NCBI GenBank assembly: GCA_017938765.1
Contig: JAGBAX010000001.1
Coordinates: 1-39,166, forward strand
From: Alistipes sp.
GTDB taxonomy: Bacteria; Bacteroidota; Bacteroidia; Bacteroidales; Rikenellaceae
Direction: 5' to 3'
DNA: 39,166 nt
Part shown: positions 22,216 to 22,413 of the stretch, in pieces
Numbering within the stretch: position 1 is the stretch's first letter
How the letters are laid out: each line of letters begins with the position of its first letter
Notes under the pieces: model-generated
Databases searched by the model: none
The model's input: only the letters and a program-made list of their open reading frames with translations
Told to the model about the DNA's origin: nothing
Made by a program: the position numbers and the translations under genes

Positions 22216-22413
22216 GAAAGTGTATTAGCTTTTATCCTTGAATGGAAATCTGGAAAATTTCAATGTCACAAGGGAAGCAACACACTCGTCACTCCGTATT
22301 GATATATCTGGGGTGTTCTGCCCCATTCTCAATACGAGTGTGGGGTATTGTTTATTTGTGACATAGGTATTCCAGAACCTCCATTCAGATAGACTAATCA
22401 GCTCCACACTTTC
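22216..22413 (+). repeat. 198-base imperfect palindrome, candidate structured leader RNA
   Basis: Nested complementary arms run from the ends inward. GAAAGTGT (22216-22223) pairs with ACACTTTC (22406-22413), and GAATGG (22240-22245) with CCATTC (22381-22386). CTGGAA pairs with TTCCAG near 22370, and TGTCACAA (22264-22271) with TTGTGACA around 22356-22363. CACACTCGT (22281-22289) pairs with ACGAGTGTG (22334-22342), and GTATTGA (22296-22302) with TCAATAC (22329-22335). At the tip, GGGG (22310-22313) pairs with CCCC (22321-22324) around TGTTCTG. The order is consistent with a single long hairpin. It lies between a promoter and the GIY-YIG gene, with no protein reading frame of its own. It could be a leader RNA, a MITE-like element or a protein-binding cruciform. 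Confidence 0.75.

Follow-up and report, generated by a model that had tools for sequence, protein, structure and literature searches.

A large, dispersed hairpin leader of Bacteroidia, probably a cis-acting RNA exchanged between genes

The SAM-II, SAM-V and preQ1-II riboswitches and the ribosomal-protein leaders are H-type pseudoknot translational leaders. The cobalamin riboswitch is used several times per genome, and variable surface-gene families can have constant 5′ regions. The leader described here shares with the first group a predicted pseudoknot near the ribosome site and a basal stem that adjoins the pseudoknot helix, but it carries an extra domain of about 190 nt, stands before unrelated genes and has no Rfam match. 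Like the cobalamin riboswitch (RF00174) it is large, structured and present several times per genome; its sequence and fold are nevertheless different, and the core does not match RF00174. As in the surface-gene families, a constant upstream block precedes exchangeable surface genes; here, however, that block is apparently a folded RNA, and almost all copies have a promoter box. The DUF805 and DUF805b RNAs (RF03081, RF02914) are, as the leader appears to be, cis-regulatory RNAs, but they are hairpin models of 35–68 nt with another consensus and do not overlap the core in the scanned loci.

The leader was identified in a 39,166-nt stretch of an Alistipes sp. contig (JAGBAX010000001.1), hereafter the window; all features given below lie on its plus strand. 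A preliminary description had placed a long nested hairpin at 22216–22413. Sequence inspection confirms that this core is closed by the arms GAAAGTGT (22216–22223) and ACACTTTC (22406–22413), with the remaining arms nested inside. The 231-nt segment 22200–22430 folds at −86.1 kcal/mol, against a mean of −49.4 (sd 4.0) for its shuffles (z −9.1; 0 of 200 as good). When the flanks are included (22176–22475), z is −5.6 and the minimum free energy structure contains a 5′ and a 3′ hairpin, with a local hairpin instead of the basal stem, so that at least two predicted folds compete and the single nested hairpin is only one of them. The hairpin itself holds, and the unit is longer than had been described, as it also comprises a 5′ hairpin, P1 (22180–22201), and a 3′ hairpin, P3 (22428–22452).

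The −7 element that had been noted at 22168 is the box TACCTTTG (22168–22175), an instance of the motif TAnnTTTG, which we take to be the Bacteroidota promoter consensus. It is followed by P1, near the presumed transcription start and recognized both by folding against shuffles and by covarying column pairs (36–40 with 47–51), by the linker GGACATATTTTGAT with its ACATA motif (22202–22215) and by the core. Behind the basal stem lie a T tract (22414–22425) and P3. Gene 1 (22474–23193), which starts 60 nt past the core, encodes a GIY-YIG protein (PF22945, E 3.4e-12); from ORFs and Pfam, genes 2–4 (23253–25675) encode a zinc-ribbon-like protein, an SPFH/GYF protein and a small protein without Pfam match. 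A simple terminator scan of the window lists no terminator at the T tract. A palindrome with a T run behind the upstream GH57 gene (22100–22133), probably the terminator of that gene, is also absent from the scan list.

For comparison, 166 copies of the leader were extracted; after removal of two (a reverse reading in locus L059, and L168) and of 30 at ≥90% identity, 134 remained. Alistipes copies had been selected by ACATA (one mismatch allowed), GAAAGTGT, CACACTTTC, TT past the core and an energy threshold, so that in these copies the linker, the closing stem, the TT and the mere fact of folding carry no independent weight. Free of this selection are the −7 box, P1, the ATG distance, the inner helices and P3, as well as the matches of a covariance model, R1, in other families. 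Forty-four of the 134 copies, hand-chosen for spread, form alignment A1, throughout which the closing stem is invariant, in part because it served as search motif. An 83-copy set was made of A1 and 39 of the 43 rows of alignment A2; the four rows omitted were a weak reverse match and three that resemble Alistipes copies.

Alistipes-type copies run from the −7 box through P1, the ACATA linker, the core, the T tract and P3, with GGAG in its loop, to the ATG. Of 134 copies, 127 have the −7 motif 20–95 nt before the core (control windows: 10 of 125 and 7 of 129), and the P1 segment folds below the mean of its own shuffles in 125 of 126. An ATG stands 50–59 nt past the core in 64 of 126 copies and 45–62 nt past it in 79; half of the copies thus have an ATG distance outside 50–59 nt. 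The other-family copies inspected by eye measure 154–212 nt. P1, ACATA linker, basal stem, T tract and a P3-like partner are retained in many of them, and the closing stem in these families reads AGCGT/ACGCT. The T tract after the basal stem was not selected in these families beyond the last two columns of the model. Among individual copies, two leaders stand in tandem before one gene at three loci (L076, L228 and L237). A shortened copy (G000:C26:19656-19781; L004/L008) keeps, by eye, the foot, helix A and the loop pairing and has lost the upper stem.

Covariation within the copies points to a conserved structure. When mutual information was computed over the 134 copies with no structure supplied, the highest ranks went to helix A and the loop pairing (up to 34 sd), with signals for P1, helix B and the pseudoknot appearing as well. 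The 5′ strand of the variable helix A (22240–22245 in the window) pairs with 22381–22386; in A1 its positions are 98–100% paired, with three to six standard pair types each. A local hairpin follows (22245–22261; local stem z 3.5), the loop of which (22249–22255) pairs with 22370–22376 and forms standard pairs in 93–100% of the 44 copies. Variable helix B (22262–22271 with 22356–22364) had been misaligned by MAFFT in A1 (43–77% paired by column), and was therefore assessed by alignment-free swapping, in which own partners are compared with swapped ones. Over the 83 copies this gave z 38 for helix A, 20.9 for the loop pairing and 33.3 for helix B, as against −0.4 (vA5–vB3), 0.1 (k5–d), 1.5 (a–c) and 1.8 (b–d) for the controls, relatedness of the sequences being still contained in these values. 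G-U pairs outnumber A-C pairs by 11 to 1 in helix A and the loop pairing, so that the plus strand is the likely RNA. The copies thus combine compensatory changes in the stems with a preferred place upstream of genes and behind a promoter box, as a structured cis-regulatory leader would. The RNA nature of the core and its position in a leader are well supported by these patterns. Both had been proposed in the preliminary description, the former as a functional RNA under selection, which the many compensatory changes bear out, and the latter, to which the promoter-like box before the core lends weight.

The foot strand of the core (NNACTCC in general; CAGCTCC at 22399–22405 in the window) forms the 5′ half of a predicted pseudoknot with the region past the core (own against swapped partners z 15.5, n = 132; control segments 0.7–1.3). 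Its partner lies mostly 20–31 nt past the core, beyond the T tract; in the window AGCTCC pairs with 22439–22444, in the P3 loop that contains GGAGTT. The pseudoknot helix abuts the basal stem (CTCC then ACAC), so that the two could stack on each other in the manner of an H-type pseudoknot. The phylum Bacteroidota has unusual ribosome sites, and the leader offers a clear test of RNA pseudoknot control of translation in that phylum.

Four further strands of the core compete for partners: strand a (22225–22240) may pair with strand b (22268–22280) or strand d (22388–22397), and so may strand c (22346–22357). With relatedness not removed, swapping over the 83 copies gives z 8.9 for a–b, 9.8 for c–d, 4.2 for a–d and 6.3 for b–c. 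In the 39 other-family copies a–b, c–d and b–c are clear (6.2–6.9) and a–d is weak (2.4). In the 44 Alistipes-type copies c–d alone is clear (3.7), a–d, b–c and a–b reaching 1.7–1.9 next to 1.5 for the control a–c; the Alistipes copies alone hardly back strand exchange. The competing pairings, supported as they are to differing degrees, make a switch possible, and would fit either a compact pseudoknotted fold or a two-state switch.

The distribution of the leader was determined with R1, which was built from 44 copies without the helix B pairs and matches the window copy at 22215–22415 with 172.9 bits. The window's genome holds 10 matches at E ≤1e-5, the window copy counted. A DNA query found copies in 20 of 41 related genomes, again counting the window's own, and R1 detected the leader in 55 of the 61 genus genomes, at 1–27 copies per positive genome. 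A covariance search across Bacteroidales, proposed in the preliminary description, gave matches in 61 of 247 genomes of the order, that is, in 50 of 174 sampled genera. Of 296 genomes of the phylum 11 match: the window's own, one of the same order, eight of the class outside the order and one outside the class. A pattern derived from the copies occurs in at least 112 stretches in named records; among the matches listed, 90 are labelled Alistipes, Tidjanibacter, Rikenella or Rikenellaceae, and odd record labels (Akkermansia, Clostridia, Sphingobacterium) may stand for misbinned MAGs. Some other-family copies lie 30–290 nt from contig ends (G103:C24 and C36; G166:C26 and C45; G198:C817; G071:C395), which hints at a repeat nearby. 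A phage origin was considered and dropped, the exact pattern having no match in viral_contigs and the DNA query none in plasmids; the one match of the DNA query in a phage collection is an unannotated 5.2-kb record named 'Bacteriophage sp.'.

Rfam 15 was found to contain nothing that matches the core, either at gathering thresholds in the window, 20 genus/family loci and 17 other-family loci, or at relaxed E-values in sets of six, seven and nine loci. Nor was the family found in the literature searched, and this large leader family is apparently uncatalogued. With 50 of 174 genera of the order and up to 27 copies per genome, it would be a control device of the size of a regulon for which no Rfam entry was found.

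The genes behind the leader have no pathway in common. By simple ad hoc rules, 81 of 97 downstream ORFs of at least 150 aa are secreted or lipoprotein-like, compared with 120 of the 389 non-overlapping ORFs taken from the same loci as background (p 3e-21); among six-frame background ORFs, 142 of 508 are signal-like. Pfam matches of 120 downstream proteins include, among the first 25 of 61 families listed, BspA-type LRR (19), DUF4988 (13), collagen-like (9), BACON (5), fimbrillin-like (4), SPFH (2) and GIY-YIG (2); coiled-coil matches such as Baculo_PEP_C are probably due to chance. The leader would tie many surface proteins of gut bacteria (BspA repeats, fimbrillin-like, BACON, DUF4988) to one signal. 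As downstream genes are mostly of the secreted or lipoprotein type, the window copy with its nuclease gene departs from the rule.

Sites related to that of the window were compared. In two genomes (G006 and G003; loci L275 and L277) the GH57 gene, located at 20873–22081 in the window, is followed directly by a PHP gene, and leader and operon are both missing. When 30 fetched GH57 loci were searched with R1, the leader was present in two, the window's own and that of G567. The latter is 96% identical to the window over 20919–22457, leader included, the P3 stretch at the end differing more by eye; it then carries 2.5 kb in place of the window's 3.0 kb, and 93% identity resumes inside gene 4 at 25469. 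A wider comparison was made with the 149 copies that had enough flank, using sequence beyond 90 nt upstream and beyond 70 nt downstream and a high downstream threshold. Out of 34 pairs of cores at least 90% identical, 27 had flanks scored unrelated on both sides, six shared the upstream flank only and one shared both; with flanks compared only beyond 90 and 70 nt, the promoter or P3 may be common to pairs scored unrelated. Such near-identical cores between flanks scored unrelated indicate that the leader has been exchanged, for which homologous recombination or gene conversion among copies would be the simplest reading. Exchange of leaders between genes would show regulation spreading by recombination. 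One copy, L086 (SUZO01000024.1, 1574–1798, minus strand), appears by eye to have a chimeric core, with arms from two subtypes and a broken loop pairing.

We consider it probable, from comparison of the copies, that the leader is an old multi-copy class of cis-acting RNA of Bacteroidia, possibly a switch that sets translation or read-through, and that it is exchanged between genes. Its function would be cis control of expression, probably of translation. The core would alternate between a–d with b–c and a–b with c–d, and the pairing state would help or hinder the basal stem and the pseudoknot beside the ribosome site, the pseudoknot tying the foot of the core to a hairpin some 20–30 nt upstream of the usual start codon. 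Switching, upon some factor, would then set translation or read-through at the T tract. By swapping between genes, probably through homologous recombination, leader copies would place different surface genes under one control.

With its strong foot and the T tract, the core could also act as a terminator or be a small RNA of its own. An attenuator, in which the core terminates conditionally and read-through depends on strand exchange, draws on the alternative pairings and on the succession of basal stem and T tract that recurs in other-family copies. Against it, the terminator scan lists none, and the pseudoknot strand, being downstream of the T tract, would act only after read-through; we regard an attenuator as possible but doubtful. 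It is quite unlikely that the core is an independent small RNA, ending at the T tract and followed by an unrelated gene, in spite of the promoter box, the compact fold and the T tract directly past the basal stem (TT being a selection criterion). The strand that covaries with the foot lies mostly 20–31 nt past the core, beyond the presumed end of such an RNA, the ATG distance is peaked, and the lack of a listed terminator weighs here as well.

Two other readings had been raised at the outset. One, an old inverted-repeat or MITE element, would make of the leader a non-autonomous mobile element whose fold and promoter are coincidental. It finds a measure of agreement in the dispersal of the copies, in the 27 core pairs between flanks scored unrelated and in the shortened copy, but the promoter box and the preferred ATG distance stand against it, as do the deep covariation of the arms across families, the pseudoknot partner outside the core and the joint absence of leader and operon at L275 and L277. 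Copies are not inserted without fixed relation to genes, the ATG spacing on the same strand being peaked, and no target duplication was seen by eye between filled and empty GH57 sites. We judge a mobile element of this kind improbable. In the other reading the hairpin serves the GIY-YIG nuclease encoded downstream as target, regulator or guide RNA. Whether it always precedes that gene family had been proposed as a check; copies are dispersed before many other genes. Adjacency is seen in the window, in G576 and in L136, but GIY-YIG accounts for only two of the 120 downstream proteins in the families listed. Among the five genus genomes with a GIY-YIG match the leader is beside the gene in two, the window's own and G576; the flanks fetched around the matches of the remaining three, G588, G017 and G566 (where the match is partial), do not contain it. 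G567 has no GIY-YIG match and carries the near-identical leader at the same chromosomal site before another gene, which makes the GIY-YIG gene behind the window copy incidental. The G576 homologue, 84% identical and preceded by the leader, has other neighbours, and only 22200–23181 of the 9 kb compared aligns. The association is not constant, and a role with the nuclease, being largely refuted, is extremely improbable.

With the cis-acting leader as the preferred reading, a further feature lies upstream of the promoter. Many −7 boxes are preceded by a palindrome, the halves of which are inverted repeats of two arms atop the core. The half GAGTGTTG, with one mismatch, is found before 68 of 125 −7 boxes and in 4 of 122 control windows. 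In 46 of the 47 copies with both motifs readable, palindrome and stem agree at their variable bases (18.7 expected on shuffling), and in 88 of 125 the match between a copy's own palindrome and stem is better than that with other copies. The window copy has, by eye, no palindrome. The agreement might mean a self-matched cassette set on exchangeable surface genes, whose apical stem mirrors the palindrome overlapping the −33 region of its own promoter, which would allow a single regulator to recognize operator DNA as well as nascent RNA; we hold this unlikely. Common or linked descent of palindrome and stem could also be the source of the agreement. An invertible promoter, with the upstream palindrome and the apical stem as its ends, was dropped by eye on account of the differing spacers (about 5 vs 60 nt).

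Other RNAs were observed beside the leader. The window contains a Cobalamin riboswitch (RF00174) at 3444–3643 (82.8 bits) and, between genes 1 and 2, a DUF805b-like RNA at 23193–23227 (28.6 bits, cut-off 35.6; E 3e-4). A constant link with DUF805 was rejected, such RNAs accompanying the leader in 2 of 17 loci of other families and, at the gathering threshold, 0 of 20 genus/family loci. In those two, L240 (2880–2945 and 3844–3912) and L259 (2258–2293), a DUF805 or DUF805b RNA lies directly downstream of a leader copy, the second one of L240 about 1 kb further.
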